From assembly GCF_016097555.1 (NCBI RefSeq), contig NC_054699.1, forward strand, positions 8,256,516 through 8,320,515: DNA of 64,000 nt, written 5' to 3'. Shown one piece after another: positions 25,945 to 64,000 of this stretch (positions within the stretch are counted from its first letter, which is position 1; the number at the start of each line of letters is the position of its first letter). The notes under the pieces are model-generated. The model was not told where the DNA came from and did not search any database. It was given only the letters and a program-made list of their open reading frames with translations. This DNA is from Gigantopelta aegis. Lineage: Eukaryota; Mollusca; Gastropoda; Neomphalida; Peltospiridae. The position numbers were made by a program, and so were the translations under genes.

Positions 25945-26125
25945 CAGACATACATAGAGACAGGGAGAGAGAGAGAGAGAGAAGAGAGAGACGGTGAGGT
26001 AGAGTTACGGGGACAGAGAGAGGCGGACAGACAGACAGATATAGAGACAGGGATACAAGAGAGAGACAGACAGAAAGAGAAACGGAAAGGGAGGGAGGGA
26101 GGGAGGGAGAGAGAGAGATCACTCA
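25945..26125. repeat. (GA)n/(GACA)n low-complexity tract
   Basis: Purine-rich tract with GACAGACA runs. Copy B has a short (CT)n(CA)n tract here (19790-19825). Confidence 0.85.
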
Positions 26126-26584
26126 TAAGAACACTGGCCGTCACAATCTACAAGATGAACGCATTTCCACTAAGAATCTTAAAAATTTAATGTATTTTGT
26201 GAAGATTATAATTATGCAAAGTTTTGATATATCATGCGGACATAGTTGTACCGTTAGAAATTTTTATAGAATTTCGAACAGTTAACATCTATCTTGCAAA
26301 CTAAGAAATGTAGATACATTTAGCTTCTATAGGCGTCGGACGATGCAGGAGCGGTGGGTAGCTAAATTAGTTCGCTTTTCAATCGGGGTGAGGGTTGGGG
26401 TGTGCACATATTTTATCACCTCAGCGTCGGTGTTTAGAGCAGTACATACCTCGTCCACACCCATACTATCGATGCCTATATTTAAAATGTGTATCTTACG
26501 AACTTTAAGTGCACCGCTCCCCGATCACCGAAGTTTATATTAAACCGGGTTTTGATTTGCTTGGCATTGCGTTCCATACATCAC

Positions 26585-26698
26585 CTTGACTTTCTCGAGA
26601 TAGTTGGATGGTACACCACTCAGTAAAGCCCATTTGTAAGTCCACTTTCTGTTTAGATCTAGTTTTTCACCGAACCCAACTGTGTGCGCAATTGCCGC
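26585..26698 (-). CDS. AADAC: Arylacetamide deacetylase-like esterase, exon 2 (copy C)
   Basis: 114 bp, phase 0 to 0; same protein as 19202-19315. Confidence 0.8.
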
Positions 26699-27024
26699 CT
26701 AAAAGTAAAAAACAAACAAAAAACACAACAAAAAACCCCAAACAAATCAAATTCATTGCATGTATGACTGTTTAACGACACATATATGGGTGTCAAAGTG
26801 AAGGTAAAATAATAATAATAAAACAAGAAAAAGATTAACAAAACACGGAGTAAAAAAAGAAAAAGAAAAAAAAAGTAAAAGAAAAAAACGTTATATCCGA
26901 CGAGATAAAAACCCAATGCGCCTGGGGTGGGGTTCGGTCACATAACCCGAGCATCTTAAGCGATCGCTGGGGTGGGGGTGGGGGTGGGGAGAGGGTGGGG
27001 GAGGTGCGGGACGTAGCTCAGTGG

Positions 27025-27174
27025 AAAGAAATGTTTTATTTAACGACGCATTTTAATTACGGTTATATGGCGTCAGACATATGGTTAAGGACCACACAGA
27101 TATTCAGAGAGGATACCCGCTGTCGCCACTTCACGGGCTACTCTTTTCGATTAGCAGCAAGGGATCTTTTATAT

Positions 27175-27250
<76 letters not shown>
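27025..27250 (-). repeat. SINE type-1 tail (reversed) and (TC)n run
   Basis: SINE tail and body 27025-27177, then a TC run to about 27250. Mirror of 18717-18945. Confidence 0.8.
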
Positions 27251-27254
<4 letters not shown>

Positions 27255-27303
27255 AGAGGAAACCCGCTACATGCTTTCATTAGACGGGCACTTTACCACT
27301 GAA

Positions 27304-27614
27304 GGGCGGAACGTAGCTCAATGGTATAGCGCTTGCTCGATGCGCGGTCGGTGTGGGATCGATCCCCGTTGGTGGGCCCATTTGGGCTATATCTCGCTCC
27401 AGCCAGTGCACCACGACTGGTATATCAAAGGCCGTGGTATGTGCTATCCTGTCTGTGGGATGGTGCATATAAAATATTCCTTGCTACTAATGAAAAAATG
27501 TAGCGGGTTTCCTGTCTAAGACTATATGTCAAAATTACCCTCTGTGTGACATTCAACAGCCGATGATTAATAAATCAGTGTCCTCTAGTGGTGTCGTTAA
27601 ACAAAAACAAACTT
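27304..27614 (+). mobile_element. tRNA-derived SINE, tail type 2
   Basis: Mirror of 18357-18668; head GGCGGAACGTAGCTCAATGG, tail GGTGTCGTTAAACAAAAACA. Confidence 0.8.
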
Positions 27615-27741
27615 TAATTTAAGCAATCGCTCTACCAAATGAGCTAGATTCTTCCTCTCTAACAGTAATATATCTTAAGTCATCTCTTAATGCTGTACAA
27701 AACAGAGCCCAGAAGACATATGAATGTATAATAATACTTAC

Positions 27742-27894
27742 GATGATGGCACCGATCTTAATCTGCGCAAACACTTTCTGCAGCTCCCAGGGTCGGTCCA
27801 TGTAATCAGGAAAGGGGGTGTACAGGAAATACCCAATACCACAAACCAAGACTCCCACAATAGCAAGATATACAGTAACCATTGTGATAGAGTT
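27742..27894 (-). CDS. AADAC: Arylacetamide deacetylase-like esterase, exon 1 (copy C)
   Basis: ATG at 27880-27882 (minus strand); the coding part is 27742-27882, 141 bp, with the same 47-residue product as copy B. Acceptor TTTTCAG, donor GTAAGT. Confidence 0.8.
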
Positions 27895-27959
27895 CTGAAA
27901 ATAATAATACATTATGTTGTACTAATAATAGCAACACCGTTCTATTGATGGTAACTAAT

Positions 27960-28145
27960 ACACCACCACCACCATTACCACTACCACAACTACCACCACC
28001 ACCACCACCACTACTGCTATCACCACTGCCACCACCACTACTACTACTATTACTAGTACTATTACCGCCTACACTACTACTACTACTACTGCTACTACTA
28101 CTATAGTACTACTACTACCACCACCACTACTACTACCACTACTAC
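27960..28145. repeat. (CCA/CTA)n trinucleotide tract
   Basis: Mirror of 17795-18015. Confidence 0.9.
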
Positions 28146-28413
28146 TAGAGCACATTAATTTATTAATCATCGGCTATTGGATGTCAAACATTTGGTAATT
28201 CTGACACAGGATACCCTTACATTTTTCCATTATTAGCAACTATCTTTTATATACACCATTCCACAGATAGGATAGCATATACCACGGCCGTTGATATATT
28301 AGTTGTGGAGCACTGGGTGGAACGAGATATAGCTCAGTGGATCCACCGGCGAGGATCGGTCCTAAACCGACTGCGATTCAGGCGAGCGCTCTACCACTGG
28401 GCTACATCTCGCC
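28145..28413 (-). mobile_element. tRNA-derived SINE, tail type 2 (reversed)
   Basis: Mirror of 17530-17797, followed by a C/A-rich run to 28440. Confidence 0.8.
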
Positions 28414-28456
28414 ACCCCCACCCCCCACCCCACCCCCCACTACTACAACTGCAACT

Positions 28457-29459
28457 ACTATAGTAGTGTCGGAAATAGAATAAAAATGATTTTCGTCAAT
28501 TATTTCTTTCATATTAAATTGACAAGTAAATATTTTGTAAATACCTATTTAATGATACTAATATAGCATTTACATGTTTGGGCTCTCATTGATGTACAAG
28601 GTGGTGTTTACTCTTGAAATTAAAATACAGATGTCAGTAAACAGATGTGTGACCTTTATTGGAACAGACTATAACACATTTTGACGATATGTGTCAATTT
28701 CATTTACCCTTAAACAAACTTTTAATTTAAAATTGCAAGTTAACTGATTAATTTGAATTGCAGCAGCAAAAATTATTAATTATGACCAGCATATTTAGTG
28801 AATATAAATTCAATATAAGTACCGTACATTAGAAATTTACACAATCTTGCAACCACTTAAAGGTGCTATATCATAGTTATATGTGAGCATCTGTTTGTGA
28901 TAAAGATTCTCCAATAAAAAATATTTTCAAATAGTAGATAAAATTATTTCCTATAATCATTTATGGGCATATAATTGAAGGTGTAGTTTTTAAATGTTAA
29001 AGCAAAAATTAATAAAAACATGATTTGCAATAGCTGTTATTATGCAACTTTGAGATAGCAGTACCAGTATAATAGATCACAAACTCAAAATGGTTTTTGA
29101 CAGTTTTGCTCAAAAGTTACTTATAAATGTCTACACACATTTGTTTTGGAGAGAAATAGGGGTAAACTGTCATCAGACACAGTCCCTCACATATTGTAAC
29201 AGCAATGAAATTGACACGTTGACCATAATTTGTTATAGTCTGTTCCCATAAAGTGCACAAATCACCTGTTTACTGACATCTTTCTGTTAATTTCAAGAGT
29301 AAACACCACCTTGTACATCAATAAGAGCCAAAACAAGTAAATGCTAAATTAGGTAGACGATCATTAAATAGATATTTACATAAAATTTACTTGTCTGTTT
29401 AATATGTAAGAAATAATCGACGAAAATAATTTTTATTCTATTTCCGACAGTACTTTAGT
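28457..29459. mobile_element. DNA element with long (about 240 bp) terminal inverted repeats
   Basis: The left end (28457-28700) and right end (about 29215-29459) are reverse complements of each other. The outer bases read ACTATAGTAGTGTCGGAAAT and, inverted, ACTAAAGTACTGTCGGAAAT. The target is the trinucleotide tract, which is uninterrupted in copy B, so the exact target duplication is ambiguous. The middle holds no transposase. A partial copy is at 1905-3786. Confidence 0.7.
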
Positions 29460-36685: not shown

Positions 36686-36714
36686 CTACCGACAAAGAGG
36701 CAAGGGCTCTTTTA

Positions 36715-37225
36715 CACGAAGACAGCACATACCACAACCTTTGGTTTACACGAAGACAGCACATACCACAACCTTTGGTTTACACGAAGACAGCACATAC
36801 CACCTTTGGTTTACAGGAAGACAGCACATGCCACAACCTTTGGTTTACACGAAGACAGCACATGCCACAGCCTTTGGTTTACAGGAAGACAGCACATGCC
36901 ACAACCTTTGGTTTACACGAAGACAGCACATGCCACAACCTTTGGTTTACACGAAGACAGCACATGCCACAACCTTTGGTTTACACGAATACAGCACATG
37001 CCACAACCTTTGGTTTACACGAAGACAGCACATGCCACAACCTTTGGTTTACACGAAGACAGCACATGCCACAACCTTTGGTTTACACGAATACAGCACA
37101 TGCCACAACCTTTGGTTTACACGAAGACAGCACATGCCACAACCTTTGGTTTACACGAAGACAGCACATGCCACAACCTTTGGTTTACACGAAGACAGCA
37201 CATACCACAACCTTTGGTTTACTAG
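36715..37225. repeat. 34-bp minisatellite, about 15 units
   Basis: Units of the form ACGAAGACAGCACATGCCAC followed by AACCTTTGGTTTAC. Because 34 is not a multiple of three, all three frames stay open and give repetitive pseudo-proteins. The unit resembles the SINE body segment GACAGGATAGCACATACCAC with the following CCTTTGATATACCAG, so the array looks like an amplified piece of a SINE. A single diverged unit is at 35205-35240. Confidence 0.85.
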
Positions 37226-38073: not shown

Positions 38074-38273
38074 NNNNNNNNNNNNNNNNNNNNNNNNNNN
38101 NNNNNNNNNNNNNNNNNNNNNNNNNNNNNNNNNNNNNNNNNNNNNNNNNNNNNNNNNNNNNNNNNNNNNNNNNNNNNNNNNNNNNNNNNNNNNNNNNNNN
38201 NNNNNNNNNNNNNNNNNNNNNNNNNNNNNNNNNNNNNNNNNNNNNNNNNNNNNNNNNNNNNNNNNNNNNNNNN
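38074..38273. other. Assembly gap, exactly 200 N
   Basis: Placeholder gap between contig 2 and contig 3, about 500 bp from the last visible exon of the VWDE-like gene. Confidence 0.99.
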
Positions 38274-38782: not shown

Positions 38783-38921
38783 CTTATGTTTACGAGGATC
38801 TTGATGATGATGGCTAGGATGACCAGTGTGATGAGTGATGTGACCACTCCTATGATCACTATCACTGTGGAACCAATGCCATCCATGCCGGTCCTCTGTC
38901 GTCTAACCTCACAGTCAGAAC
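38783..38921 (-). CDS. VWDE: VWDE-like gene, transmembrane exon
   Basis: 139 bp, phase 1 to 2, acceptor GTCTGCAG, donor GTAAGA. After SSDCEVRRQRTGMDGIG comes a hydrophobic helix (STVIVIIGVVTSLITLVILA, then III) followed by KILVNIR. The previous exon ends in the matching phase, 11.9 kb away. Confidence 0.75.
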
Positions 38922-41900
38922 CTGCAGACACAACATTATAATGAAACTAGTGTTGTAATGGAACCAATGCTTTCCAATGGGCCTCGGTGGCATCGTGGTT
39001 AGGCCATCGGTCTACAGGCTGGTAGGTACTGGGTTCGGATCCCAGTCGAGGCATGGGATTTTTAATCCAGATACAGACTCCAAACCCTGAGTGAGTGCTC
39101 CGCAAGGCTCAATGGGTAGGTGTAAACCACTTGCACCGACCAGTGATCCATAACTGGTTTAACAAAGGCCATGGTTTGTGCTATCCTGCCTGTGGGAAGC
39201 ACAAATAAAAGATCCCTTGCTGCTAATCGGAAAAAGTAGCCCATGTAGTGGCGACAGCGGGATTCCTCTCAAAATCTGTGTGGTCCTTAACCATATGTCT
39301 GACGCCATATAACCGTAAATAAAATGTGTTGAGAGGGTCGTTAAATAAAACATTTCTTTCTTTTTCTTTCAATACCTTCCAGGCTGGTCCACTGTCATCT
39401 AACCTGACAATTAGAACCTACAGACAAAACATTCCATTCAAACTAGTTTTATCATGGAAGCAATCAGACTTTGCCTAGAATGTCCGTTCACCTCTTCTTT
39501 GTGCAGACACGAATTTGATCACGGAATACGGTTTTATTATTCAGATTACAGGGGTAGCATTAAGGATTTTCCCCCAGGAGTCCATTTTTTCCCAGTGGAC
39601 TCATTTGACCCTGAATTGGCTTATTTCAATGAGTCCATTCTCAAAATCCATGAGTCCATATTAGTATACGGTACCCTTTATTTTGGTACCAAACTCGATA
39701 TGTTTATGTTTAAAAATTAAAAAAAAGTTTGGAAAGTAGGTCACGAGGACTAGAATGTTATTTAGTTTCAAATTCCCTTTATTTTAACACCAAACTCGAT
39801 AAAACAATAATTTGACCCCCCCCCCCCCCCCCCCCCCCCCCCGGGTAAGAATCCTTACCCCATGGATAAGAATAAACAGAGGCAAGGTAAACCCTGTGTC
39901 AGCATTTCAGAACAAAATTGAGACATAAAGGAAAAAAAATGTGCTTGCCCCCCCACCCCACCCCACCCCCAGTGTTTTGCACCTTAAAACGCATCTACAT
40001 ACCTTAAACTATCATCAGAAGTCATGTTCAAAACAGTGGCCATATAAATTTTCTAAAAAAAAAAACATGCCAGGGGACACGGAAAAATGTTTTTGCTATG
40101 CAACCGCAGCACGTACTTGTTTGGGCCATATGCAAAAAGAAACTGGGTCACGGCCTATCGCTGAATGCAGTCGTTAAACAAATAGCGCAGTTAGGCCTTC
40201 TGACCTAGAAAACTGCAACTCTCTTTGTAGGAATATTCAAACAAGGAAGGAAATGTTTTATTTTACGACACACTCAACACATTTTATTTACGGTTATATG
40301 GCGTCAGACATATGGTTAAGGACCACACAGATATTGAGAGAGGAAACCTGCTGTCGCCACTTCATGGTCTACTCTTTTCAATTAGCAGCAAGGGATCTTT
40401 TATATGCACCATCCCATAGACAGGATTGCACATACCACAGCCTTTGATGTACCAGTCGTGGTGCACTGGCTGGAATGAGAAATAGCCCAATGGGCCCACT
40501 GACGGGAATCGATCCCAGACTGACCGCACATCAAGCGAATGCTTTACAACTGGGCTATGTCTCGTCCCTGAATATTCAAACAAGTTAATAAACTGTATAG
40601 CTACACTCGGTTCTGTTTCCACACAAGTTACGAGCATTTCCGATTGCCCAATATCATAATCAGTATAGCCAATCTACGTCAAAATGACGTCATTTTATAG
40701 ACTTTAATTTCGATAGTCGTGTTAATGGTTTAAATAAATAATTAAACAGATCCACACAATACCTCAACTATATCAATGTTCAGACGCATAGTGATATATT
40801 GATGTAGTTTGCTGATATAGTGGCCGCAATTATTAAGTTATTGTGACATTTCATCTTTGCACTATAGTAAGGTACATGTCGACTATTAACACGACTCCAG
40901 TATTAGTAACATAGCCCGTGTTCTGCTTACAGAAACCCCATTGATTGTGACGTGCATTGGCCACACCAGGATTTCTGATGGTGTTTCGGCCTAAGAGAAT
41001 ATGTACCATAATCAACCATTCCCACAATTCCACTAGATGATCAGGAGAAGAAAGTGATTTTCACTCACTTTTTACAATAGGTTTATAGTGGGAATGATAG
41101 CAGAGATCATGGCGGGATTATGAGTGACGGATTGTTTGACTTGGCTAACTGATTCCATGCATCCAGATCACTTAGGACGTGGTGATGATGAAATAATGGA
41201 ATAAACATGTGTCTGGAATGTGTCTTTGAAAATAAACTGGGACGATTTTATTATCACTTGTGGTGATGAGCAGGCATCCCAGTCTGCTTTCCATACGTCC
41301 AGGGACGCATGGACACATCTTAACGTGACCCCTGGATTATATACTGATGGAAAGAAATTGAGAATAATACATGAGGCTTGTTTTTACCTAAATCCCATGT
41401 TTTCACTTCCTATTTTGAAATCTTACCACCTGTCTAAGGTGTGCTTGTATCCAAGTCAAGTTTTACTACTTCTCTGTTGAAATCTTACCACATTTCTATG
41501 ACATCTTTTCACCTAAATCCACTTTTGTTACTTACTGTTACAATCTTATCACATTTCCATGGCATGTTTTCACCTGGATCCAGTGTTTCTACTTACTCTG
41601 TTACAATCTTATCGCATTTCTATGGCATGTTTTCACCTAAATCCAGTTTTTCTACTTACACATGTACCCTGTTACAATCTTATCGCATTTCTATGGCATG
41701 TTTTCACCTAAATCCAGTTTTTCTACTTACACATGTACCCTGTTACAATCTTATCGCATTTCTATGGCATGTTTTCACCTAAATCCAGTTTTTCTACTTA
41801 CACATGTACCCTGTTACAATCTTATCGCATTTCTATGGCATGTTTTCACCTAAATCCAGTTTTTTCTACTTACACATGTACCCTGTTACAATCTTATCGC

Positions 41901-44900
41901 ATTTCTATGGCATGTCTTCACCTAAATCCAGTTTTTCTACTTACACATGTACCCTGTTACAATCTTATCGCATTTCTATGGCATGTCTTCACCTAAATCC
42001 AGTTTTTCTACTTACACATGTACCCTGTTACAATCTTATCGCATTTCTATGGCATGTCTTCACCTAAATCCAGTTTTTCTACTTACACATGTACCCTGTT
42101 ACAATCTTATCGCATTTCTATGGCATGTCTTCACCTAAATCCAGTTTTTCTACTTACACATGTACCCTGTTACAATCTTATCGCATTTCTATGGCATGTC
42201 TTCACCTAAATCCAGTTTTTCTACTTACACATGTACCCTGTTACAATCTTATCGCATTTCTATGGCATGTCTTCACCTAAATCCAGTTTTTCTACTTACA
42301 CATGTACCCTGTTACAATCTTATCGCATTTCTATGGCATGTCTTCACCTAAATCCAGTTTTTCTACTTACACATGTACCCTGTTACAATCTTATCGCATT
42401 TCTATGGCATGTCTTCACCTAAATCCAGTTTTTCTACTTACACATGTACCCTGTTACAATCTTATCGCATTTCTATGGCATGTCTTCACCTAAATCCAGT
42501 TTTTCTACTTACACATGTACCCTGTTACAATCTTATCGCATTTCTATGGCATGTCTTCACCTAAATCCAGTTTTTTCTACTTACACATGTACCCTGTTAC
42601 AATCTTATCGCATTTCTATGGCATGTCTTCACCTAAATCCAGTTTTTCTACTTACACATGTACCCTGTTACAATCTTATCGCATTTCTATTGCATGTCTT
42701 CACCTAAATCCAGTTTTTCTACTTACACATGTACCCTGTTACAATCTTATCGCATTTCTATTGCATGTTTTCACCTAAATCCATTTCTATAGACATTACC
42801 TGTCCTCAAACAAGTGCACCTCCCCCCCACGCAAGTGGTCTGGTCTGAACATCCCAACAGCCAATGGGATGGCCTAAATTCTTCTACTGCATACTGCTCT
42901 CTAGTTCCGGTCACATGACTGTAACTTCCTTCTTTTTCTCTTCGCTAAAGGGTCTGGACGTCTTTTGTTTGGCTCTGTTTGGAGTCAACTTTTTTTATAA
43001 GACCTTTGGTTTTGTATTCGTGTTTGGGTGAAATGTTTTCACCTTAATTTCGTTAGCTTCGTTAGCTTTCGTATGTTTCTTTTCGCGTATTCGCTTGACT
43101 TTTCAAGCGTTTATTTACATGAAATGTTGTTATATTGCCGGTTGTCGTGTCGGACGCCATTTTGCATTGACTGGCTTTGTGTTGGGTGGAATGTTATTTT
43201 TTTTTCACCTTATTCGTTAGCTTTCGTTAGCTTTCGTATGTTTCGCGTATTTCGCTTGACTTGCCAAGTGTTAATTACATGAAATGTTGTTATATTGCCG
43301 GTTGTTGTGTCGGACGCCATTTGCAAAATGGCGTCTTTGTTGACCGGCTTTGTGTTTGTGTCATGGATTCTTTTCTTTCTTTTTCACAGATTGAAAACTT
43401 ATTATCATGTCAGATGTTAATGTTCAGCGACAGGTACGAGCGTGCCTACGCTGTAAGAAGTTCACTGCAGGCGGCGACCCTCATGAATTATGTCCGGGTT
43501 GCCGTGTTCCTTGTAGCCTCTCTTCGAGATGCGACCTGTGTTCGGGCCTGTCTACTGTCGAGTTCGCGGCTTACTTGAAGGTGCTGTCGGCGAGAGCCAA
43601 GAAAGTGGAATCTTCGCCGTCAATTGCGGACTCCATAGCAGATGTATTACGTTCGATGTTACCTACTATGCTGAAAGAGACTATGGCGTCAATGGCGGCC
43701 TTACCAGAACCGGCGGGTTTGGGGCCAGGTCCGGTTCAAGTCCCCTCTTCGGGGGGTGCGGCTCCAGGACGCAAGACTTCAGATGACAGGCCTGCAGTTC
43801 CTACGCAGCCCTTTGACAAGCCGACTCAATCAGTTAGACGTTCCACGGCCTCCAAGGATCACCGATCTTCAAAGTCATCTTCGGCGCAGCGGAGCCGGGA
43901 CCGGAGCCGGGCTCGTAGCCGTTCCCCACGACCTGCACGTCTCCCTACGGGTTCCGTGGATCGGCAGCGCAGACCTTCTATTGAGGCTTCAGAGGGTTCT
44001 CGACGGGACCGTCCACGGTCCGGTTCACCAGTGAATTCTGTTTCGGCGGATCGATTAGCCTGTGCTCGAGTGCTTCGAGACTTTGGAGATGCACCGCCTA
44101 CAGCGGTTTCCGTCATTGATGAGACTGAATCTCCTGACCATATGAATATGAGGGATTGCTTGGCGGCAGTCTATGACATGTTGCCGTCCTTGCCACATCC
44201 ACCAACGCCGTCCAAGAAGGGACCGACACCGATGATAGCGACTGATGTCCCTCCGGAAGATGTGGTGATCTGTTCCTTGGCAGCCGGTACACTCGTATCC
44301 GAGGTGGCGACGGATTTAGACCGCACTTTTAAAGACACAGCGTCTTTCGTCGCCTTCCCAACTTGGGGTCACCGTATGTATCCGGTGTTTGACATGACCT
44401 TTACAGATGTAGCTCCGTCTTTGGATGAAGATGTTCACCGTCTTGGGAAGTCGTCAACCGTGGATTTGACGGACAAACAAGTACAAGCCATGGATACTGC
44501 CCAGAGACGTTGCTTGTTTGTGTTATCTTACTTGGACGTTTTCCTTGCGGCGATGGCCACCCAGGCAAAAGATGCACGGTGCTACGCGCTGTTTCAGCAA
44601 TCGGCGCAGATGCTAGCTTTCCTGACGTCTTCGGTGACTTCGATGTCCTCGATGTTAATGCAATACCGTCGCCAGGCTTATTTAAAGAAATCCACTTTGG
44701 ATTTCCAGCATAAGAAGGAGCTGTTAGCTCAACCGTGGTCCGCAACGAAGCTGTTTGCAGGCAAAGTTTCTGAGGTGGTGAAGGCCAATGATAAGGACCA
44801 ACAGTCGACAGCAACTGTCAAAGCGTTGCAACTTATTTCGACGTTGGAATCTACAAAGCGGAAGTCTACATTCACACCACAACCACCATCTAAGCGCTGG

Positions 44901-47900
44901 AGAGGTTCCTTTCGAGGTCAACCTTCTCGAAGGTTTCCGGTCAGACGACCATCCGGTCCGCCAGCTCGGACCCAGGGGAAGCCTGGTCGACGTTGACGCC
45001 AGCCAACAGATCGTGGACTGCTCAGATTGCTTCAACCTACGCCCGCCCCTGATTTTGAACCAGAACAACGATTCGGTTTTGACGCTTCCGGTGTGTACCA
45101 CACCGGTCGGAAGATCCATGGTCGGAAGTCGACTTCGCCGTTATTGGCGAAACTGGCAGACACTTTGCCAAGATCCGTTTGTCACGTCGATCTTGAAGAC
45201 AGGGTATCGTCTGCAATTGTCTGCCATCCCTCCATTGACCACTTCACCTCGAGAACCGCGGCATTCCGTTGCGCAAGTCAAGGTTCTACAGGAGTCCGTC
45301 AACAAGCTGGTGGAGAAGGGAGCCGTTCGCAGCATTTCGGAAGTACACTTAACACCCGGATTTTACTCGGACATCTTTCTCGTACCAAAGAAGGATTCTC
45401 CAGAGCTGCGAATGATTCACAACTTGGCGGTCTTCAACGACCACTACCTGTCTCCTCCTCCGACCTTCAAGATGTTAACGTTGCGAGATATCATAGCCGT
45501 GATCAGACCGGGGGATTGGCTTGCCTCGCTAGATCTCAAGGACGCCTACCTGCACGTTCCGATGCATGCCGATTTCCATCACTACCTGCGGTTTGTGCTA
45601 CAGGGTCGGCATTACGAATGGACAGTCCTGCCCTTTGGGATATCCATAGCGCCATGGCTGTTCACCAGAATCACGACTCCGATGTGACGCTTCCTGCATC
45701 GCAGAGGTATATCCTTTTACCCATACCTCGACGATTGCCTGATGAGGTGTCACAGCAAGACAGGGCTGACTGCACATGTTGCCTTCATCATGGACTTTCT
45801 CAAGCAGCTGGGTTGGATTATCAACATCGAGAAATCTCGACTGGCTCCCACGCAGTCTCTACAGTTCATAGGCGCTTGGCTTCGACCCGACCTGGGCCTC
45901 GTTCAAGTTCCTTTAGACCGTTGGGAGAAGATCCAGACCATGATTGTCATAGCCCTCACCGCTCCAATGACCTTCCGCGGTTGGCAGAGTCTCCTGGGTC
46001 TCCTCACTTCTGCCCAGGATTTGACACTCAGAGGTCGTCTCCAGTTGCGGCGCTTGCAGATGTTTCTCAACCCGTTTGTTCGTTTCAACAATCCGGACTT
46101 GATCATCTCACTCCCGGACGATCTACGCTCCAGCCTGCAGTGGTGGCAGCTCCGATCGAACGTCTTAGAAGGTGTCTCTATGCGGGCCTTCATAGCCACT
46201 CATCACCTATTCGTCAACGCGTCACTGGAAGGTTGGGGAGCCCATCTAAGCAACCAGACTACTTCAGGGCTGTGGTCTCCCGGCGAACTCGGATTCCACA
46301 TCAACCTGTTAGAGTTGTTGGCAGTCTACTACGCTATCCTTCATTGGCGACAGATGTTGACGGAAGCCTCTCTCATGGTGGCCACAGACAGTACGACCGC
46401 GGCGGCTTACATCAATCGTCAGGGCGGAACTCACTCCAGCAGTCTGCTGCAGTTGACTTATCGTCTCTACAAGCTGGTCGACGAAATTCCATTGCAACTT
46501 CGGGCTCGTCATATTCCAGGGGTTTCCAATGTACTAGCCGACACATTGTCCCGGCCGTCGTCTCCACAGCCGACGGAGTGGATGCTCCATCCGGAAGCAT
46601 TTCGATGGGTGTGCGACACACTTTGGACACCAAACATCGATCTTTTCGCCACACGATTCAACCATCAGTTGAGGGTTTACGTGTCTCCGGTGCCGGATCC
46701 CGAAGCTCTGGATCTCGACGCATTGGCCATCAGCTGGGAACAGATGGACGCGTACGCTTTTCCTCCACCAATCCTCCTTCCAAGGGTGCTTCAGAGGTTT
46801 CAGCTGTACCATTGTCGCCTGTTGCTCATTGCTCCGATGTGGCCATCCAGGATGTGGTATCCAGATCTAATACGTCTTGCCGATCCACATCCTTTACCGC
46901 TGCCAGACTGGGATCATCTGTTGCTGCATCCCACGTCAAGACTATACCATCCACGTCCGCAGTTGTTCCAACTGCACGCGTGGACTTTATCTCCAAGAGT
47001 TTGAGGAAGAAAGGTTTTTCTTCACAGTCTACGGCGGCCATTTTGAAAGCGCACAGATCATCTACTACTGCGGCTTACAACGTCAGATGGCTTTGCTTTC
47101 ACCGATGGTGTGTTGGGAAAAAACTCAAACCTCAGACGATCCAGATACCTCGTCTTGCTGATTTTTTGCTGTATCTGCGGACCACTTTACGATTGAAGGG
47201 GTCTACCATCGCTGGGTACGTTTCGGTCATCGCTACTGTTCGTGATGTCACTACTGGAACGAAGTTATCGGGTATTCCTGAGATCCATAAGATGATCAAA
47301 GGGTTTCGCCTTGAAGATCAAGTACACCGGTTTCGGCCACCAAGATGGGACCTGAATTTGGTGTTACGAGCGTTATCGACCGCACCTTATGAGCCGATCG
47401 AGTCCTCTTCCCTGCAAGATTTGACACGGAAGACGGTGTTTTTACTCGGTTTCGCCACGGCTGCTCGTGTCTCAGAACTTCATGCTCTTGATGTAGATTT
47501 GGTACGTTTTCACCGAGATCGGCGTGCAGTCAACTTGGGGTTACTCATGAACTTTATTGCAAAGAATCAGTTACCAGACCAAGCGCCTCGCTCGTATGTT
47601 GTGCAGGCCCTCTCCTCTATCGTTGGTCCGGCGGACGTTGAGGACTTGGCGTTGTGCCCTGTTAGAGCCCTGCACCAGTACATCGAGAGGACCAGATCTT
47701 TTCGACAACATCGTAAAAGACTTTTCCTCTCCTGTAACCAGAGTCGGTTGAGGGATATTACCAAGAACACGGTGGCCACCTGGATCCGGTCTTCTATCCT
47801 GACCGCCTATCAGAAGGAGGGTTTACCTGCTCCGTCTGCTTCCAATCCGCATGAACTCCGTGCCTTGGCTGCCACGATGTCCCTGCATTGCAACACATCC

Positions 47901-50900
47901 ATTCAGCACATCATCACTGGCTGTTTCTGGGCGACGGACTCCATCTTCGCCAACTATTATCTGAGGGATGTCTCCACAGAAGACGTTGAGGGGTTCCATC
48001 ATCTGGGTCCGGTTGTTGCTGCACAGACTCTGTTGAATACAAGCCGTCCTCGTCGCCGTTGATGTCTGTCTGATTCTGGGCTGCATACCGAGATGTCCAC
48101 CGAATCGACAGGTGAGGATTGCTTAGACTTTTGTTCTTTTGCACAGTTCACGCACTGGTGCCGGAACTTTTGTCTCGATAACCTTTACCCTGCACTGCAT
48201 GTGGTTATTGGTTGTCGTTATTGAACTAACAGATCTTTGGTGTACTAGACAGAAAACATTCGGGGGTCTTGTTTTGTTCAATGTTCTGACGGATGCACCT
48301 CATTAGGTTGTCGCTTGTTATTGAAAAACTATAACACTTCAATACGTGAGGGTTACCTAACACCTGCATCCCTGGTGGCTACGTCTTCCCACCCTGTCAG
48401 AACCAGCATGAGATGTGGCTTCCGCCTCCTGGTCCATGTGTTCTAGGAGCCGTACCTGCCACTGCTGACGGATGCCACCATTCTGGTTGTTGTTACTAAC
48501 ATCACCTGCATTGGTCTGTGACGGGCATCCCTAGGAGGAGGGTTTACCAAGGTTGGCCTTATTCTTCCACTAGTCAGCCTCTTTCCGGTTGGGGAGTTAT
48601 CACAAGCATCTACGGATCTCGGCACCCACCACCATCTGTTGAATGCTGCACTTGTTTGAGGACAGGTAATGTCTATAGAAATGGAGAAAACTTGAGTGTT
48701 TTCTCTTTTATAGATACATTACCTGTCCTCAAGATTCATCCCGCCCGGGCCTCCCCGCTTCCTGTTCTCCGTGCGATGCGCTCATGGAAAAAGAAGGAAG
48801 TTACAGTCATGTGACCGGAACTAGAGAGCAGTATGCAGTAGAAGAATTTAGGCCATCCCATTGGCTGTTGGGATGTTCGGACCAGACCACTTGCGTGGGG
48901 GGGAGGTGCACTTGTTTGAGGACAGGTAATGTATCTATAAAAGAGAAAACACTCAAGTTTTCTCCAGTTTTTCTACTTACACATGTACCCTGTTACAATC
49001 TTATCGCATTTCTATTGCATGTTTTCACCTAAATCCAGTTTTTCTACTTACACATGTACCCTGTTACAATCTTATCGCATTTCTATGGCATGTTTTCACC
49101 TAAATCCAGTTTTTCTACTTACACATGTACCCTGTTACAATCTTATCGCATTTCTATGGCATGTTTTCACCTAAATCCAGTTTTTCTACTTACACATGTA
49201 CCCTGTTACAATCTTATCGCATTTCTATGGCATGTTTTCACCTAAATCCAGTTTTTCTACTTACACATGTACCCTGTTACAATCTTATCGCATTTCTATG
49301 GCATGTCTTCACCTAAATCCAGTTTTTCTACTTACACATGTACCCTGTTACAATCTTATCACATTTCTATGGCATGTCTTCACCTAAATCCAGTTTTTCT
49401 ACTTACACATGTACCCTGTTACAATCTTATCACATTTCTATGGCATGTCTTCACCTAAATCCAGTTTTTCTACTTACACATGTACCCTGTTACAATCTTA
49501 TCACATTTCTATGGCATGTCTTCACCTAAATCCAGTTTTTTCTACTTACACATGTACCCTGTTACAATCTTATCACATTTCTATGGCATGTCTTCACCTA
49601 AATCCAGTTTTTCTACTTACACATGTACCCTGTTACAATCTTATCACATTTCTATGGCATGTCTTCACCTAAATCCAGTTTTTCTACTTACACATGTACC
49701 CTGTTACAATCTTATCACATTTCTATGGCATGTCTTCACCTAAATCCAGTTTTTCTACTTACACATGTACCCTGTTACAATCTTATCACATTTCTATGGC
49801 ATGTCTTCACCTAAATCCAGTTTTTCTACTTACACATGTACCCTGTTACAATCTTATCACATTTCTATGGCATGTTTTCACCTAAATCCAGTTTTTCTAC
49901 TTACACATGTACCCTGTTACAATCTTATCACATTTCTATGGCATGTTTTCACCTAAATCCAGTTTTTCTACTTACACATGTACCCTGTTACAATCTTATC
50001 ACATTTCTATGGCATGTCTTCACCTAAATCCAGTTTTTCTACTTACACATGTACCCTGTTACAATCTTATCACATTTCTATGGCATGTTTTCACCTAAAT
50101 CCAGTTTTTCTACTTACACATGTACCCTGTTACAATCTTATCACATTTCTATTGCATGTCTTCACCTAAATCCAGTTTTTCTACTTACACATGTACCCTG
50201 TTACAATCTTATCACATTTCTATGGCATGTTTTCACCTAAATCCAGTTTTTCTACTTACACATGTACCCTGTTACAATCTTATCACATTTCTATTGCATG
50301 TCTTCACCTAAATCCAGTTTTTCTACTTACACATGTACCCTGTTACAATCTTATCACATTTCTATGGCATGTTTTCACCTAAATCCAGTTTTTCTACTTA
50401 CACATGTACCCTGTTACAATCTTATCACATTTCTATTGCATGTCTTCACCTAAATCCAGTTTTTCTACTTACACATGTACCCTGTTACAATCTTATCACA
50501 TTTCTATGGCATGTTTTCACCTAAATCCAGTTTTTCTACTTACACATGTACCCTGTTACAATCTTATCACATTTCTATTGCATGTCTTCACCTAAATCCA
50601 GTTTTTCTACTTACACATGTACCCTGTTACAATCTTATCACATTTCTATGGCATGTTTTCACCTAAATCCAGTTTTTCTACTTACACATGTACCCTGTTA
50701 CAATCTTATCACATTTCTATGGCATGTTTTCACCTAAATCCAGTTTTTCTACTTACACATGTACCCTGTTACAATCTTATCACATTTCTATGGCATGTTT
50801 GTCCACTTAATCCAGTGTTTCTACTTACTCTGGCTGTACGTCCAATCATTCTTGTTTTCGTCTGGTTGACAGAAGAGACAGCGATCTGTTGTTGATGAGT

Positions 50901-50953
50901 GACCAGCAGCGTAACAGTTGGTGCCAATCTCGCAAATATTGCTCTGAAGTAAA

Positions 50954-50986
<33 letters not shown>

Positions 50987-62600: not shown

Positions 62601-64000
62601 GAGCTGAATCCTACCCTAAAAAACTAATTAATGAAAAAATGATCACATTTTTATTTTGTGATTAGCAACAGTTACATTACCTTTTGTGGCTCTTATATCG
62701 TTCACCGATGGCATTATCCAAGCATTGAGGTACCTGGCTCCAGCTTTCACTTTCACAATAGTTCCCGTCCAAAATACAATCTGAAATATTTAAAATATAG
62801 TACCATCCATAAAACAATCTGAAATATTTACAATAGTACCATCCATATAATAATATTTACAATAGTACCGTCCATAAAACAATCTCAAATATTTACAATA
62901 GCGCCATTCATAAAACAATCTGAAATATTTAAAATATAGTACCGTCCATAAAACAATTAGAAATATTTAAAATATAGTACTGTCCATAAAACATTCTGAA
63001 ATATTTAAAATATAGTACCGTCCATAAAACAATTAGAAATATTTACAATAGTACCCTTCATAATACAATATTTACAATAGTACCATCCATAAAACAATCT
63101 CAAATATTTACAATAGTACCATCCATAAAACAATCTCAAATATTTAAAATATAGAACCATCTATAAAACAATCTGAAATATTTACAATAGTACTGTCCAT
63201 AAAACAATCTGAAATATTTACAATATAGTACCATCCATAAAACAATCTCAAATATTTAAAATATAGAACCATCTATAAAACAATCTCAAATATTTACAAT
63301 AGTACTGTCCATAAAACAATCTGAAATATTTACAATATAGTACCATCCATAAAACAATCTGAAATATTTACAATAGTACCATCCATAAAACAATCTGAAA
63401 TATTTACAATATAGTACCATCCATAAAACAATCTGAAATATTCACAATATAGTACCATCCATAAAACAATCTGAAATATTTACAATAGTACCGTCCATAA
63501 AACAATCTGAACTATTTAAAATATAGTACCATCCATAAAACAATCTGAAACATTTAAAATTATATTATCGTCCATAAAACAATCTGAAATATTTAAAATA
63601 TAGTACCGTCCATAAAACAATTTGAAATATTTACAATAGTACCGTCCATAAGAAAGATTTACCATTAATACCATGATACCATTAATACCATTAATATTAA
63701 TGCACAAGCTGCATCTATAATCTCTTTTTAATTTGCTATTCATTTTTCTTTTCATTTATTTTTTGGATGCTATAACTTTTGATGAAGATATCTCTCAATG
63801 TTGCTGATTTATATTTGAATTCAAGTATCCACTACTTATTTTGAAATGAATTGCTTTGAAAATTCACAAATGGTGAACATGGTGAGTGCTAGAGCTATAG
63901 CCCTGGCTCCTGTTAACTGGCGAGCTCTGTGCCCACACTACCGCACTCACGTGGAACGTCCTCATGTCTGCAGAGTTGTAGATCTTGATCCCCGCTGTGA
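38783..64000 (-). CDS. VWDE: VWDE-like gene (VWD and EGF domains, transmembrane), eleven exons seen
   Basis: Eleven exons on the minus strand (63951-64000, 62681-62780, 60987-61116, 59071-59207, 57955-58088, 56052-56222, 53833-54013, 52080-52279, 51600-51830, 50829-50943, 38783-38921) all have AG acceptors and GT donors, and their phases agree, giving about 529 codons. Domain order: the end of a VWD domain, a cysteine-rich segment, a polybasic RRRRR site, two helical cysteine-containing segments, an EGF module, a TIG-like beta domain, a CxxC module and a transmembrane helix. The run from VWD through EGF to the CHDC module follows vertebrate VWDE. The membrane helix soon after is unlike the long EGF tail of human VWDE. 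The start lies beyond 64000 and the cytoplasmic tail beyond 38783. Likely a cell-surface or shed extracellular protein; its function is unknown. Confidence 0.75.
38981..39360 (+). mobile_element. tRNA-derived SINE with a different head, tail type 1
   Basis: The head (38981-39053) still folds as a tRNA: GCCTCG pairs with CGAGGC, and a perfect T arm carries CTGGGTTCGGATCCCAG. The second half and tail are the type-1 SINE (GCGACAGCGGGATTCC to AAATAAAACATTTCTTTC). So the same tail is joined to another tRNA-like head. Confidence 0.75.
39361..40230. other. Intronic stretch without recognised genes; poly-C run
   Basis: Lies inside the 11.9-kb intron of the VWDE-like gene. A poly-C run is at 39817-39842. 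An 88-codon frame at 39454-39720 has no recognisable domain. Confidence 0.4.
40246..40569 (-). mobile_element. Full-length tRNA-derived SINE, tail type 1, with 15-bp target duplication
   Basis: GAATATTCAAACAAG flanks both sides (40231-40245, 40570-40584), which fixes both ends. Tail AAGGAAATG, head ending CTGGGCTATGTCTCGTCC. This is the clearest intact SINE insertion in the window and implies LINE-type mobilisation. Confidence 0.9.
40585..41364. other. Intronic stretch without recognised features
   Basis: AT-rich intron sequence; no exon with consistent phase was found on the minus strand. Confidence 0.4.
41365..42783. repeat. 71-bp tandem array, left part
   Basis: About 17 regular units from about 41590, preceded by two or three diverged, irregular units (41365-41590). 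The core is CTACTTACACATGTACCCTG, then TTACAATCTTATCGCATTTC, then the GGCATG(T/C)(T/C)TTCACCTAAATCC segment. Two units carry an extra T in the T run, about ten units apart. On the minus strand every regular unit contains GTAAGT. The array stops at the DIRS element and resumes beyond it. Confidence 0.95.
42784..42938 (+). repeat. DIRS left inverted terminal repeat
   Basis: Matches the reverse complement of 48788-48940 closely from ACATTACCTGTCCTCAAACA to TAACTTCCTTCTTTTTC. The outermost 10 bases differ from those of the right repeat. Confidence 0.92.
43027..43355 (+). promoter_or_regulatory. Tandem pair of about 165 bp ahead of the DIRS Gag frame
   Basis: Two units (about 43027-43185 and 43186-43355) share CGTTAGCTTTCG, GACTT...CAAG, ATGAAATGTTGTTATATTGC and GTGTCGGACGCCATTT. 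The position between the left repeat and the first frame suggests a leader or promoter repeat. That role is inferred only from position. Confidence 0.5.
43407..44996 (+). CDS. DIRS Gag-like protein
   Basis: 529 codons. Near the start are two CxxC pairs (VRACLRCKKF; CPGCRVPC; CDLC), then a Ser/Arg-rich middle (RSRDRSRARSRSPRPARLP), a conserved-looking globular half, and a basic C-terminus (KRWRGSFRGQ). This is the usual make-up of the first DIRS frame, a putative nucleic-acid-binding structural protein. Part of a fossil-class element. Confidence 0.75.
   Translation: MSDVNVQRQVRACLRCKKFTAGGDPHELCPGCRVPCSLSSRCDLCSGLSTVEFAAYLKVLSARAKKVESSPSIADSIADVLRSMLPTMLKETMASMAALPEPAGLGPGPVQVPSSGGAAPGRKTSDDRPAVPTQPFDKPTQSVRRSTASKDHRSSKSSSAQRSRDRSRARSRSPRPARLPTGSVDRQRRPSIEASEGSRRDRPRSGSPVNSVSADRLACARVLRDFGDAPPTAVSVIDETESPDHMNMRDCLAAVYDMLPSLPHPPTPSKKGPTPMIATDVPPEDVVICSLAAGTLVSEVATDLDRTFKDTASFVAFPTWGHRMYPVFDMTFTDVAPSLDEDVHRLGKSSTVDLTDKQVQAMDTAQRRCLFVLSYLDVFLAAMATQAKDARCYALFQQSAQMLAFLTSSVTSMSSMLMQYRRQAYLKKSTLDFQHKKELLAQPWSATKLFAGKVSEVVKANDKDQQSTATVKALQLISTLESTKRKSTFTPQPPSKRWRGSFRGQPSRRFPVRRPSGPPARTQGKPGRR
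44788..47004 (+). pseudogene. DIRS reverse transcriptase and RNase H region
   Basis: Visible RT blocks: LTPGFYSDIFLVPKKDSPEL, WLASLDLKDAYLHVPMHADF, WTVLPFGISIAPWLFTRI and YLDDCL. RNase H follows: LFVNASLEGWGAHLS, LLELLAVYYAI, ATDSTTAAAYINRQGG and HIPGVSNVLADTLSR. Downstream is the ETW-like region typical of DIRS (WTPNIDLFATRFNHQLRVYV). It overlaps the recombinase frame along its whole length. Treated as a fossil; about one break. Confidence 0.88.
45027..48062 (+). CDS. DIRS tyrosine recombinase (long overlapping frame)
   Basis: The last third (from about 46980) is a tyrosine recombinase: an N-terminal core-binding part (STTAAYNVRWLCFHRWCVGK), the first catalytic Arg in FATAARVSELHAL, HELRALAAT as the HxxR box, and a Tyr in the ANYYLRDVS segment near the end. 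It would insert the circular DNA copy. The frame is also open for about 650 codons upstream, opposite the RT/RNase H frame. That part is Ser/Arg/His-rich and has no domain I recognise. Long overlap of these two frames is known for DIRS elements. Confidence 0.85.
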   Translation: MLQPTPAPDFEPEQRFGFDASGVYHTGRKIHGRKSTSPLLAKLADTLPRSVCHVDLEDRVSSAIVCHPSIDHFTSRTAAFRCASQGSTGVRQQAGGEGSRSQHFGSTLNTRILLGHLSRTKEGFSRAANDSQLGGLQRPLPVSSSDLQDVNVARYHSRDQTGGLACLARSQGRLPARSDACRFPSLPAVCATGSALRMDSPALWDIHSAMAVHQNHDSDVTLPASQRYILLPIPRRLPDEVSQQDRADCTCCLHHGLSQAAGLDYQHREISTGSHAVSTVHRRLASTRPGPRSSSFRPLGEDPDHDCHSPHRSNDLPRLAESPGSPHFCPGFDTQRSSPVAALADVSQPVCSFQQSGLDHLTPGRSTLQPAVVAAPIERLRRCLYAGLHSHSSPIRQRVTGRLGSPSKQPDYFRAVVSRRTRIPHQPVRVVGSLLRYPSLATDVDGSLSHGGHRQYDRGGLHQSSGRNSLQQSAAVDLSSLQAGRRNSIATSGSSYSRGFQCTSRHIVPAVVSTADGVDAPSGSISMGVRHTLDTKHRSFRHTIQPSVEGLRVSGAGSRSSGSRRIGHQLGTDGRVRFSSTNPPSKGASEVSAVPLSPVAHCSDVAIQDVVSRSNTSCRSTSFTAARLGSSVAASHVKTIPSTSAVVPTARVDFISKSLRKKGFSSQSTAAILKAHRSSTTAAYNVRWLCFHRWCVGKKLKPQTIQIPRLADFLLYLRTTLRLKGSTIAGYVSVIATVRDVTTGTKLSGIPEIHKMIKGFRLEDQVHRFRPPRWDLNLVLRALSTAPYEPIESSSLQDLTRKTVFLLGFATAARVSELHALDVDLVRFHRDRRAVNLGLLMNFIAKNQLPDQAPRSYVVQALSSIVGPADVEDLALCPVRALHQYIERTRSFRQHRKRLFLSCNQSRLRDITKNTVATWIRSSILTAYQKEGLPAPSASNPHELRALAATMSLHCNTSIQHIITGCFWATDSIFANYYLRDVSTEDVEGFHHLGPVVAAQTLLNTSRPRRR
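48648..48732. repeat. DIRS internal complementary region
   Basis: The first half is the complement of the left end of the element (GTAATGTCTATAGAAATGG), the second half the complement of the right end (GGAGAAAACTTGAGTG). They meet at TGG, the complement of the CCA at both junctions. This is the template thought to join the ends into a circle. Confidence 0.92.
48788..48963 (-). repeat. DIRS right inverted terminal repeat
   Basis: Inverted copy of the left repeat with an extra outer extension of about 20 bases (ending ACACTCAAGTTTTCT), as is usual for DIRS elements. Confidence 0.92.
48964..50815. repeat. 71-bp tandem array, right part
   Basis: About 26 units. Units near the element match the left part (TTATCGCA). 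From about 49350 the variant TTATCACA takes over. From about 50050 to 50660 GGCATGTTTTC and TTGCATGTCTTC units alternate, a 142-bp higher-order repeat. One unit near 49530 has the extra T. The last unit becomes irregular (TGTCCACTTAATCCAGTG) and runs into the splice donor of the exon at 50829. Confidence 0.95.
50829..50943 (-). CDS. VWDE: VWDE-like gene, cysteine-rich exon
   Basis: 115 bp, phase 0 to 1. Reads SNICEIGTNCYAAGHSSTTD then RCLFCQPDENKNDWTYSQ, matching the CY...C..C.PD module after the TIG-like part of VWDE. Acceptor TACTTCAG; donor GTAAGT at 50823-50828, which is where the 71-bp array begins. Confidence 0.75.
50955..51345. repeat. (AAT)n, (GT)n and poly-G runs; MITE-like G/C-rich block
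   Basis: (AAT)n at 50956-50985; GT then poly-G at 51062-51105. A G/C-rich block at about 51165-51345 ends AGAATCCTAGCTACGGGCAT, which looks like the end of a MITE, but the other end is unclear. Confidence 0.6.
51600..51830 (-). CDS. VWDE: VWDE-like gene, TIG-like domain exon
   Basis: 231 bp, phase 0 to 0. Reads VGQTSYEEIDQQMVLTQATV, later IRCSITHVGK and FDPVCHDCDAVSATCTKM. The beta-rich part followed by CHDC resembles the region after the first EGF module of VWDE. Acceptor ATATTTAG, donor GTGAGT. Confidence 0.75.
51857..52000 (-). mobile_element. tRNA-derived SINE, tail type 2, fragment
   Basis: Tail and body without the tRNA head. Confidence 0.7.
52080..52279 (-). CDS. VWDE: VWDE-like gene, EGF end and following exon
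   Basis: 200 bp, phase 1 to 0. Finishes the EGF module (SCVCTADYVGADCS), then PPTITSLENDGVCEFRDSLN and CSDIFINGQNFVQSELLMC, the CDxRxxxC-type segment that follows EGF in VWDE. Acceptor TTTGTCCAG, donor GTAAGA. Confidence 0.8.
52361..52415. mobile_element. DIRS terminal-repeat fragment
   Basis: TTTTATGGATACATTACCTG, then TCCTCAAAACAAGTGCAC and a C-rich run, matches the outer end of the DIRS right terminal repeat (complement of 48905-48950). No other DIRS sequence adjoins it. Relic of another insertion. Confidence 0.7.
52431..52625 (-). mobile_element. tRNA-derived SINE, tail type 2, fragment
   Basis: Tail and body, ending near the CACTGGTTAGAACG segment. Confidence 0.65.
52640..53832. other. 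Intronic AT-rich stretch
   Basis: A- and C-rich runs at 52845-52915 and a (TAAC)n/(TAAA)n tract at 53608-53680. A short inverted pair lies near 53055-53100 (AAAACGATGTG and CACATCGTTTT). No exon was found. Confidence 0.45.
53833..54013 (-). CDS. VWDE: VWDE-like gene, exon starting the EGF module
   Basis: 181 bp, phase 0 to 1. Reads VAGGPMFLEETLDDLMEECI, a helical part, then LSCNPVDCSGNGQCVEG, the first half of an EGF module that is completed in the next exon. Acceptor AACGCAG, donor GTGGGA. Confidence 0.8.
54644..55174. mobile_element. MITE-like element with TCCCCTACC inverted ends and internal AAGGGCCATAA repeats
   Basis: The ends read GTCCCCTACCGG and (inverted) GTCCCCTACCAG. Inside are three diverged repeats, each with CTCCTAAGTTCAAGGGCCATAA and an AACTT(G/A)ATCTGTAA segment, followed by a GACGGACGGACGG run. 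A lone right end (ACCGGTAGGGGACTAA) is at about 56656. Superfamily not assigned. Confidence 0.6.
55340..56020. repeat. Diverged duplicated block
   Basis: Two similar stretches (about 55360-55520 and 55870-56015) share GGTCGAAATTTGCA/GGTCAAAATTTGCA, a TCTATCA segment and TTATATTCTCTCATCCT. Remnants of an unassigned repeat. Confidence 0.45.
56052..56222 (-). CDS. VWDE: VWDE-like gene, helical cysteine exon
   Basis: 171 bp, phase 0 to 0. Reads KAGWPTKDGFTIESARALCE and later NSTISQKCGQAM and YCMEDIR. Acceptor TTTACCAG, donor GTAAGA. Confidence 0.78.
56416..56590 (-). mobile_element. SINE with internal deletion and 12-bp target duplication
   Basis: TGGACAAGACAG on both sides (56404-56415, 56591-56602). 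The type-1 tail start is joined straight to the body and head, so most of the tail is gone. A type-2 tail fragment is at 56357-56402. Confidence 0.75.
56745..57240. mobile_element. Two tRNA-derived SINEs, tail type 2, head to head
   Basis: A reversed, diverged copy (about 56748-56930) lies next to a forward copy (about 56945-57228, head CATAACCCAGTGATAAAGTG). Confidence 0.65.
57318..57925 (-). mobile_element. SINE type 1 with a type-2 SINE nested inside
   Basis: The inner SINE (57557-57858) is flanked by TGGCTGGAATGA (57545-57556, 57859-57870), a 12-bp target duplication within the outer SINE body. The outer head resumes at 57871 and ends about 30 bases from the exon at 57955. Confidence 0.85.
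57955..58088 (-). CDS. VWDE: VWDE-like gene, exon with polybasic cleavage site
   Basis: 134 bp, phase 1 to 0. Reads GSTDITSELVVKSLVNEPIG, then ARRRRRAVPSTAND. Five arginines in an extracellular part are a strong candidate furin-type cleavage site. Acceptor CTTTTCAG, donor GTTAGT. Confidence 0.78.
58125..58700. mobile_element. SINE of a further family (+), followed by a reversed type-2 SINE
   Basis: 58125-58375: truncated tRNA-like head (GAGTTCGCAGCCCGG), GTGGGTAGGTGTAAGGCCAC, CAGATAGCTGAGGTGTGTGC and tail CACGAAACTAAGTTGAAACG. 58385-58700: type-2 body and head, reversed, with a short internal duplication. Confidence 0.65.
59071..59207 (-). CDS. VWDE: VWDE-like gene, cysteine-rich exon after the VWD domain
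   Basis: 137 bp, phase 2 to 1. Reads IMKNSVEDMSNGVQFAGADH and VCDCGDGCSAMTMVATCGLV. Acceptor TATTCTAG, donor GTATGT. Confidence 0.75.
59225..60500. mobile_element. Cluster of diverged SINEs
   Basis: 59225-59580 (+) is the same further family as 58125-58375, with GTGGTTAAGCCATCGG. 59618-59825, 60000-60236 and 60245-60480 are reversed type-2 copies of varying completeness. A fragment like the 105-bp insert of copy A lies at 59918-59985. Confidence 0.6.
60700..60986. repeat. Poly-G runs and a SINE fragment
   Basis: G-rich runs at 60717-60742 and 60821-60837, then a tRNA-like SINE head (GTAGCTCGGTGGTACAGCGC) from about 60836 to 60965. Confidence 0.6.
60987..61116 (-). CDS. VWDE: VWDE-like gene, VWD domain end
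   Basis: 130 bp, phase 1 to 2. Reads GLCGMFDGNVYNDFYLPNGD and later ALTPDDFSEAWR. GLCGxFDGxxxNDF and FxxxWR are the hallmarks of the C-terminal half of VWD domains. Acceptor TCCTTGTAG; donor GTATAA, a weak donor. Confidence 0.82.
61255..62680. mobile_element. Cluster of SINEs in an intron
   Basis: Reversed fragment 61255-61395; forward copy about 61420-61710; nearly complete reversed type-1 copy 62083-62403; reversed fragment 62404-62600, with a poly-C run at 62535-62547. Confidence 0.6.
62681..62780 (-). CDS. VWDE: VWDE-like gene, VWD domain exon
   Basis: 100 bp, phase 0 to 1. Reads IVFWTGTIVKVKAGARYLNA and WIMPSVNDIRATKG, the strand region before GLCG in VWD domains. Acceptor AAATATTTCAG; donor GTAATG. 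The acceptor and first bases are copied in the adjoining tandem array. Confidence 0.8.
62781..63650. repeat. 36-38 bp minisatellite derived from a splice junction
   Basis: About 22 units of the form AATATTTA(A/C)AATA(TA)GTACC followed by (A/G)TCCATAAAACAATCTGA. On the minus strand a unit reads AAATATTTCAGATTGTTTTA then TGGACGGTACTA, like the real junction AAATATTTCAG/ATTGTATTTTGGACGGGA. About a dozen units keep TTTCAG intact. Others have TTTGAG or TTTCTA there. Confidence 0.9.
63651..63950. other. Intronic stretch without recognised features
   Basis: AT-rich sequence between the minisatellite and the next exon; nothing recognised. Confidence 0.4.
63951..64000 (-). CDS. VWDE: VWDE-like gene, first exon in the window (partial)
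   Basis: Open at the window edge. Reads TAGIKIYNSADMRTFH and ends at GTGAGT in phase 0. Part of the VWD domain. Confidence 0.7.

Follow-up and report, generated by a model that had tools for sequence, protein, structure and literature searches.

The window analysed here, a stretch of 64,000 nucleotides from the gastropod Gigantopelta aegis, carries on its minus strand a Cys-rich module exon whose donor forms the edge of a 71-bp tandem array, and the intron that begins there contains both the array and a DIRS-like retrotransposon (Table 1). The acceptor of the exon, read directly from the sequence, is CAG/AGC (the slash marks the junction), the intron opens at 50828 with GTAAGTAGAAACACTGG on the minus strand directly after the exon, and the exon fuses in frame (phase 1) with the exon starting at 38921. 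The preceding exon terminates at 51600 in phase 0 and is followed by GTGAGT. By several signs, namely its frame, its phases and splice positions that it has in common with related exons, the module exon is genuine; blastn found no DNA copy of it elsewhere in the 64-kb window. A (TAA)10 microsatellite is located at 50955-50985, a few bases 5' of its acceptor. The host gene gives a VWD match at 0.0012 (under cut-off) and weak EGF-like matches, and its transmembrane helix was recognised by eye. It may be VWDE-like, VWDE/mucin-like proteins being built of VWD and EGF-like domains with a terminal membrane anchor.

Table 1. Features of the locus in window positions, with arrays of three related loci in the last three rows
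Feature	Position	Strand	Remarks
Next exon, transmembrane helix (by eye)	38783..38921	-	acceptor CTGCAG/GTTCTGAC, phase 1
Intron, 11.9 kb	38922..50828	-	contains array and retrotransposon
Far-end diverged units D1-D4	41375..41596	-	period about 61-63 bp between first ones; without 8-nt segment of regular unit
Far-side regular 71-bp units	41597..42783	-	16 units beyond retrotransposon
DIRS1-like tyrosine-recombinase retrotransposon, 6.2 kb	42784..48962	+	opposite to gene; inserted in one array unit, TCCA core
Exon-side regular 71-bp units	48963..50756	-	26 units with GTAAGTAG, last cut by retrotransposon
Unit P, donor-bearing, first 72 bp of intron (GTAAGTAGAAACACTGG...)	50757..50828	-	presumed genuine 5' splice site at 50828
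Cys-rich module exon (SNICEIGTNCY...NDWTYSQ)	50829..50943	-	115 nt, phase 0 in, phase 1 out; donor = array edge
L033	G000:C12:3220454-3220531 and downstream		36-bp boundary array of related gene
L019 array	870-1512		45-46 bp acceptor repeat
L036 array	about 858-1512	sense orientation	45-46 bp acceptor repeat

The original prediction had placed the donor of this exon at the edge of the array and had described about 43 consensus-like donors in tandem within the intron. Sequence, TRF and motif scans agree on the edge, which coincides exactly with the end of the exon; the coordinates that had been given for exon and array are exact, and the scans count 43 copies of GTAAGTAG beyond the real donor. 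In total, 45 GTAAGTA motifs lie on the sense strand from 41535 to 50828, comprising the real donor and 44 further ones, and 44 of the 45 read GTAAGTAG. Outside the array, the shorter GTAAGT occurs 10 times on the minus strand and 11 times on the plus strand of the whole window. TRF reports the array in two parts, with 26.3 copies at 48963-50828 (98% matches) and 16.7 copies at 41594-42783 (99% matches), sizes that are those of one assembly. The 42 regular units all have TGT before GTAAGTAG, with 39 carrying AAAAACTGG and three AAAAAACTGG; units near the donor follow a 142-bp alternation, and the regular unit at 48980 is the one cut by the retrotransposon. Other repeats in the window include a 34-bp array of 15 copies at 36711-37222, with a unit similar to a portion of a dispersed element (CACATACCACAGCCTTTG...) that recurs at other places in the window, a further 38/112-bp array at 62755-63651, and large inverted and direct duplications of about 84-98% identity in the left half (3208-5756, 17491-21899 and 23082-28704).

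The middle units are near-identical and those at both edges (P and D1-D4) are diverged, which is the usual pattern of tandem arrays. The sequence after the donor was correctly described as a diverged unit: unit P is in register and 89-93% identical to the full-length units that it matched. At the far end, D1 at 41596 carries AAACACTGG and, like the intron start, reads GTAAGTAGAAACACTGG, and D2 at 41535 carries GTAAGTAA (wider reading GTAAGTAAC); beyond D2 two further decayed units, D3 and D4, are readable to about 41375, and these most diverged units have no donor. Compared with D1 and the donor flank, the regular unit has 8 extra bases ahead of its donor. D1 contains CAGA/GTAAGTAGAAACACTGGAT, identical to the exon end and donor, and the 23-mer CAGAGTAAGTAGAAACACTGGAT occurs at only these two sites on either strand of the window, its first four bases being the last 4 bases of the exon. 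D3 has CAGAG, reading CAACAGAG. Homology of the exon tail to the unit beyond CAGA was considered and rejected, as the similarity was not significant against 300 shuffles (P 0.12 for D1, 0.19 for the regular unit); against the window background the values were P 0.03 and 0.26, respectively. With only 4 exon bases in common at this locus, the proof of exon copying would come by analogy with four related loci (L033, L020 and L019/L036), where more of the exon appears in the arrays.

The retrotransposon that interrupts the array was absent from the original prediction. Pfam matches to RVT_1 (6.8e-11), RT_RNaseH (6.8e-06) and Phage_integrase (1.9e-4, under its curated cut-off), inverted termini 97% identical over 155 bp, an internal complementary region (ICR) within 48647-48732 and the lack of a target duplication together point to a DIRS1-like element, now degenerate, with a stop inside the reverse transcriptase frame. 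A TCCA core is common to both junctions and the internal region of the element, and excision in silico rejoins one array unit. This structure resembles that described in PMC3266345, where DIRS elements have inverted termini, an internal complementary region, reverse transcriptase-RNase H and a tyrosine recombinase, insert by recombination of a circular junction at a short identical sequence with no target duplication, and are known in Mollusca; the core here is 4 nt, unlike the 3 bp given in that paper. The variant block AAATGCGATAAG is present in 16/16 regular units on the far side of the element and, on its exon side, in the five complete units closest to it; the other 20 regular units carry AAATGTGATAAG in its place. 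As the variant stands on both flanks, the element inserted after amplification, and it is a late, degenerate passenger of the array.

Taken together, the array is very probably a minisatellite seeded at the exon-intron boundary, of the kind named 'mirage' in amphioxus, with the exon and its donor present first and the array arising later. A tandem duplication would have copied the boundary, taking a few bases from the exon end (CAGA at least) together with about 59 intron bases, and the most diverged copies, D1-D4, would survive from this stage at the far edge. A version 8 nt longer may then have been amplified to 42 near-identical units by unequal exchange or slippage, homogenisation acting on the middle while both edges retained old variants, before the DIRS-like element entered one unit. 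The genuine donor would be the first of 45, and the other 44 would be decoys of near-equal predicted U1 complementarity.

Donor strength was scored as matches to the U1 consensus. The real donor matches at 8/11 positions and the regular unit donors at 7/11, within the range of 18 module donors (5-9) and 23 Sushi donors (5-10), and the unit donors are therefore of ordinary predicted strength. Readthrough past the real donor ends at once in an in-frame stop (...SQSK stop, that is Ser-Lys-stop), and use of any unit donor would retain the in-frame codons AGT AAG TAG, and so the stop, ahead of the membrane-anchor exon. It is thus conceivable, in view of this stop just before the transmembrane exon and of donors that score as others do, that the array is functional, its alternative donors yielding a truncated or soluble form, or its units forming a platform for U1 binding or splice regulation, comparable to the minisatellite of human IFI6. 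Such a role seems unlikely, however. The donor has been lost from D3 and D4, which argues against its long-term maintenance by selection, at least in those units, the regular ones being too homogeneous for the same test; moreover, amphioxus mirages are reported not to disturb regular splicing (PMC3087553, PMC3902484). Use of the units as cassette exons is also unlikely, since the AGs in a regular unit have only 6-7 pyrimidines, and never >7, in the 18 nt upstream. The likeliest outcome, we infer, is that the exon-proximal donor would be used almost always, the other donors would be silent and the array would be mostly neutral baggage.

The original prediction had left two orders of events side by side, outgrowth of the array from the start of the intron or adoption of the present donor from a unit. 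In the latter case the end of the exon would have slid to the GTAAGTAG of a unit in a pre-existing intronic array. The identity between donor flank and unit is compatible with either order, and the exon end CAGA is itself unit-like in D1, but the related exons argue for the former. In three protein searches the genome yielded 18 different module exons, including that at 50829-50943; one of these searches had returned 25 matches, of which 8 (L024-L031) were excluded because all matched residues 9-28 at the same identity and are likely a dispersed repeat. The acceptor AG precedes the first Cys by three codons in 18/18 exons. Donor positions, read from the DNA, fall exactly 13 nt downstream of where the conserved Trp codon begins in 17/18 exons, the present one included, so that 16 of the 17 others have GT at the identical codon and phase; the exception, L022, has its donor 10 nt after the Trp codon start, one codon shorter and in the same phase. 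Being common to 16/17 relatives, the donor position is, on this DNA evidence, older than the array. The donor flanks of the 17 related exons have no likeness to the 71-bp unit by eye, and none was matched by the unit search. The original prediction would have counted orthologues with donor flanks unlike the unit against it; this was mis-aimed, as outgrowth implies no likeness to the unit in relatives.

The distribution of the unit in the genome bears on the same question. In 1,149,253,464 bases the exact 17-mer motif has at least 39 matches and the 72-nt unit P at least 45, and all those returned (39/39 and 45/45) lie within this intron; these counts are lower bounds, very common words being skipped by the search. 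A dispersed satellite or introner-like sequence would be expected to have copies elsewhere in the genome; none was among the matches listed, and on these matches the unit is not a dispersed satellite that lent its donor. One exact pattern of the unit had 0 matches in each of the viral and prokaryotic collections, as expected for an animal locus. Given the shared donor position and phase, the dissimilar flanks and the absence of outside matches among those returned, capture of the donor from an array is very improbable, and of the two orders the outgrowth of the array from the intron start is favoured.

Seeding at the boundary receives its clearest illustration from relatives in the same genome, where the 18 module loci were examined by TRF and by direct sequence reading. 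In L033 a 36-bp unit, composed of the last 26 exon nt and 10 intron nt, is repeated about 39 times; the first intron copy is 25/26 identical to the last 26 exon nt, and 39 GTAAGT occur in the 1475 nt examined. A 24-nt core of this array has at least 41 matches genome-wide, 38 on contig C12 and 3 on C10 near 0.774 Mb. The process proposed for the 50829 locus is unmistakable there. L020 has a 24/48-bp unit in an array that includes the donor and 9 exon nt, and in L019 and L036 units of 45/46 bp with TTTTCAG form acceptor arrays that reach 15 nt into the exon. Boundary copying has therefore occurred several times in the gene family and at both splice sites. Further arrays begin just inside the intron, at base +7 in L036 (a second array, 40 bp), +8 in L041 (59 bp) and +11 in L040 (57 bp); in L018, L032, L034, L035, L037, L039 and L047 neither junction had an array edge at a distance of 16 nt or less.

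It might be expected that the location of array edges would by itself reveal a preference for junctions. An edge lies within 16 nt of 11/36 module junctions, as against 0.76 expected from edge density, close pairs of loci (L017/L018, L019/L036, L021/L023, L022/L039 and L040/L041) being non-independent in this count. However, arrays cover 39% of module flanks, and a barrier model in which arrays merely stop at exons predicts about 14 (0.39 x 36), so that the pile-up is no evidence of preferred seeding, and array edges at exon borders were rejected as sole proof of junction-seeding. What does provide evidence of boundary-spanning founders is the exon sequence copied into the arrays. The same pile-up, within what the barrier model predicts, could be read in favour of an array that began by chance inside the intron and stopped at the exon, exons resisting repeats, with a donor match that is incidental or due to conversion. 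This explains neither the in-register donor in every regular unit nor the exon sequence within the arrays of L033, L020, L019 and L036, and has very little probability. An assembly artefact is scarcely credible: long homogeneous arrays are often mis-sized and an N run lies nearby at about 38075-38273, but no N was seen within the array, and the ordered variant blocks, the 142-bp alternation, the graded decay of the far-end units and the clean insertion junction all speak against it.

As a control, 25 Sushi exons with 48 junctions and 8% array cover had array edges at 0/48 junctions at TRF score 50 and at 1/48 at score 40; array edges at junctions were therefore not seen, at the higher score, in the other exons sampled. 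This sample was drawn from 150/835 candidates scored, which gave 20 loci (11, in long multi-domain frames, were unused), and was enlarged by 20 more hand-picked among 130 listed matches without a locus, each in a small frame of its own and spread over various contigs. The 29 exons lost L071, cut by a contig end, and three with unclear borders (L064, L092, L093); for L091 and L094 the donor was not used. Borders were set by a scoring rule of our own making and donors by a set of weights. A broader reading can be ventured, though we think it rather doubtful: that minisatellites in this gene family arise preferentially at splice junctions, both donors (the 50829 locus, L033 and L020) and acceptors (L019/L036, perhaps L017 and L021/L023), and that mirages could be a recurrent, animal-wide form of intron growth and a store of splice sites for intron and exon gain, not a peculiarity of amphioxus.

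The original prediction knew of no described case, and here it was mistaken, since amphioxus mirages (PMC3087553, PMC3902484) and human IFI6 (PMC4526556) precede it. The minisatellite of IFI6 (6-16) gives multiple splice donors (Turri 1995, cited in PMC4526556); two of its downstream repeats are reported to serve as donors, so that three mRNA species arise. The present array likewise offers several predicted splice donors; unlike IFI6, its unit is 71 bp and readthrough meets a stop. Tandem duplication has also been considered as a route to intron gain, in the potato RdRp case (PMC4974935) and, along with Rogers' idea and internal gene duplication, in a discussion in PMC3087553. Splice signals are copied in that process as they are here, but no new intron has formed at this locus; an existing intron grows. 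Tandem repeats at exon-intron boundaries are further reported for human duplicated genes (PMC2812944). Among molluscs, intron 3 of an abalone TSSK1-like gene contains a 27-bp minisatellite and has intact GT-AG borders, and the accessible part of PMC6905558 mentions no boundary copying; in what is available of a Conus paper minisatellites appear only in the reference list (PMC3862624). Among the matches listed from the open-access literature, mostly titles and the beginnings of abstracts, no molluscan case of boundary copying was recognised.

The closest parallel is with the mirages themselves, the minisatellite-like exon-intron boundary duplications described in PMC3087553 at 5' and 3' boundaries of the amphioxus globins BflGb6 and BflGb9 and of Adh3, to which PMC3902484 adds PGBD5 (splice-site duplications) and TnC. 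Many of those copies keep splice signals, and splicing is regular by RT-PCR (PMC3087553). This locus is a further example of the mirage kind, the kind itself being already known. The boundary appears to have been duplicated, with splice signals kept and edges left outside homogenisation, the exon contribution being only 4 bases here and more in L033, L020, L019 and L036. A tandem repeat sits at the boundary here as in amphioxus, where the reported units measure 10-72 bp in Adh3 and 150-160 bp in the globins. At this locus a unit forms the flank of the donor, and D1 duplicates the donor along with 4 exon nt; as in the amphioxus mirages, the intronic copies retain splice signals (44 GTAAGTA beyond the real donor) and the edges, here P and D1-D4, escape homogenisation. 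With 45 in-register donors, the first presumably genuine, it is a large natural example outside amphioxus, for which the term was coined, and relatives in the same genome provide clearer cases and a mirror case at acceptors. The large array and its clearer relatives should therefore make a good test bed for donor choice among near-equals, for intron lengthening and for the seeding of introns or exons. In scale and setting the locus differs from its amphioxus counterparts, with 6 and 3 repeat units in the BflGb6 haplotypes (PMC3087553 and PMC3902484): a single intron here has 44 further donors as against those 6 and 3 units, its array is split by a retrotransposon, the phenomenon recurs within one gene family, and the host is a mollusc.
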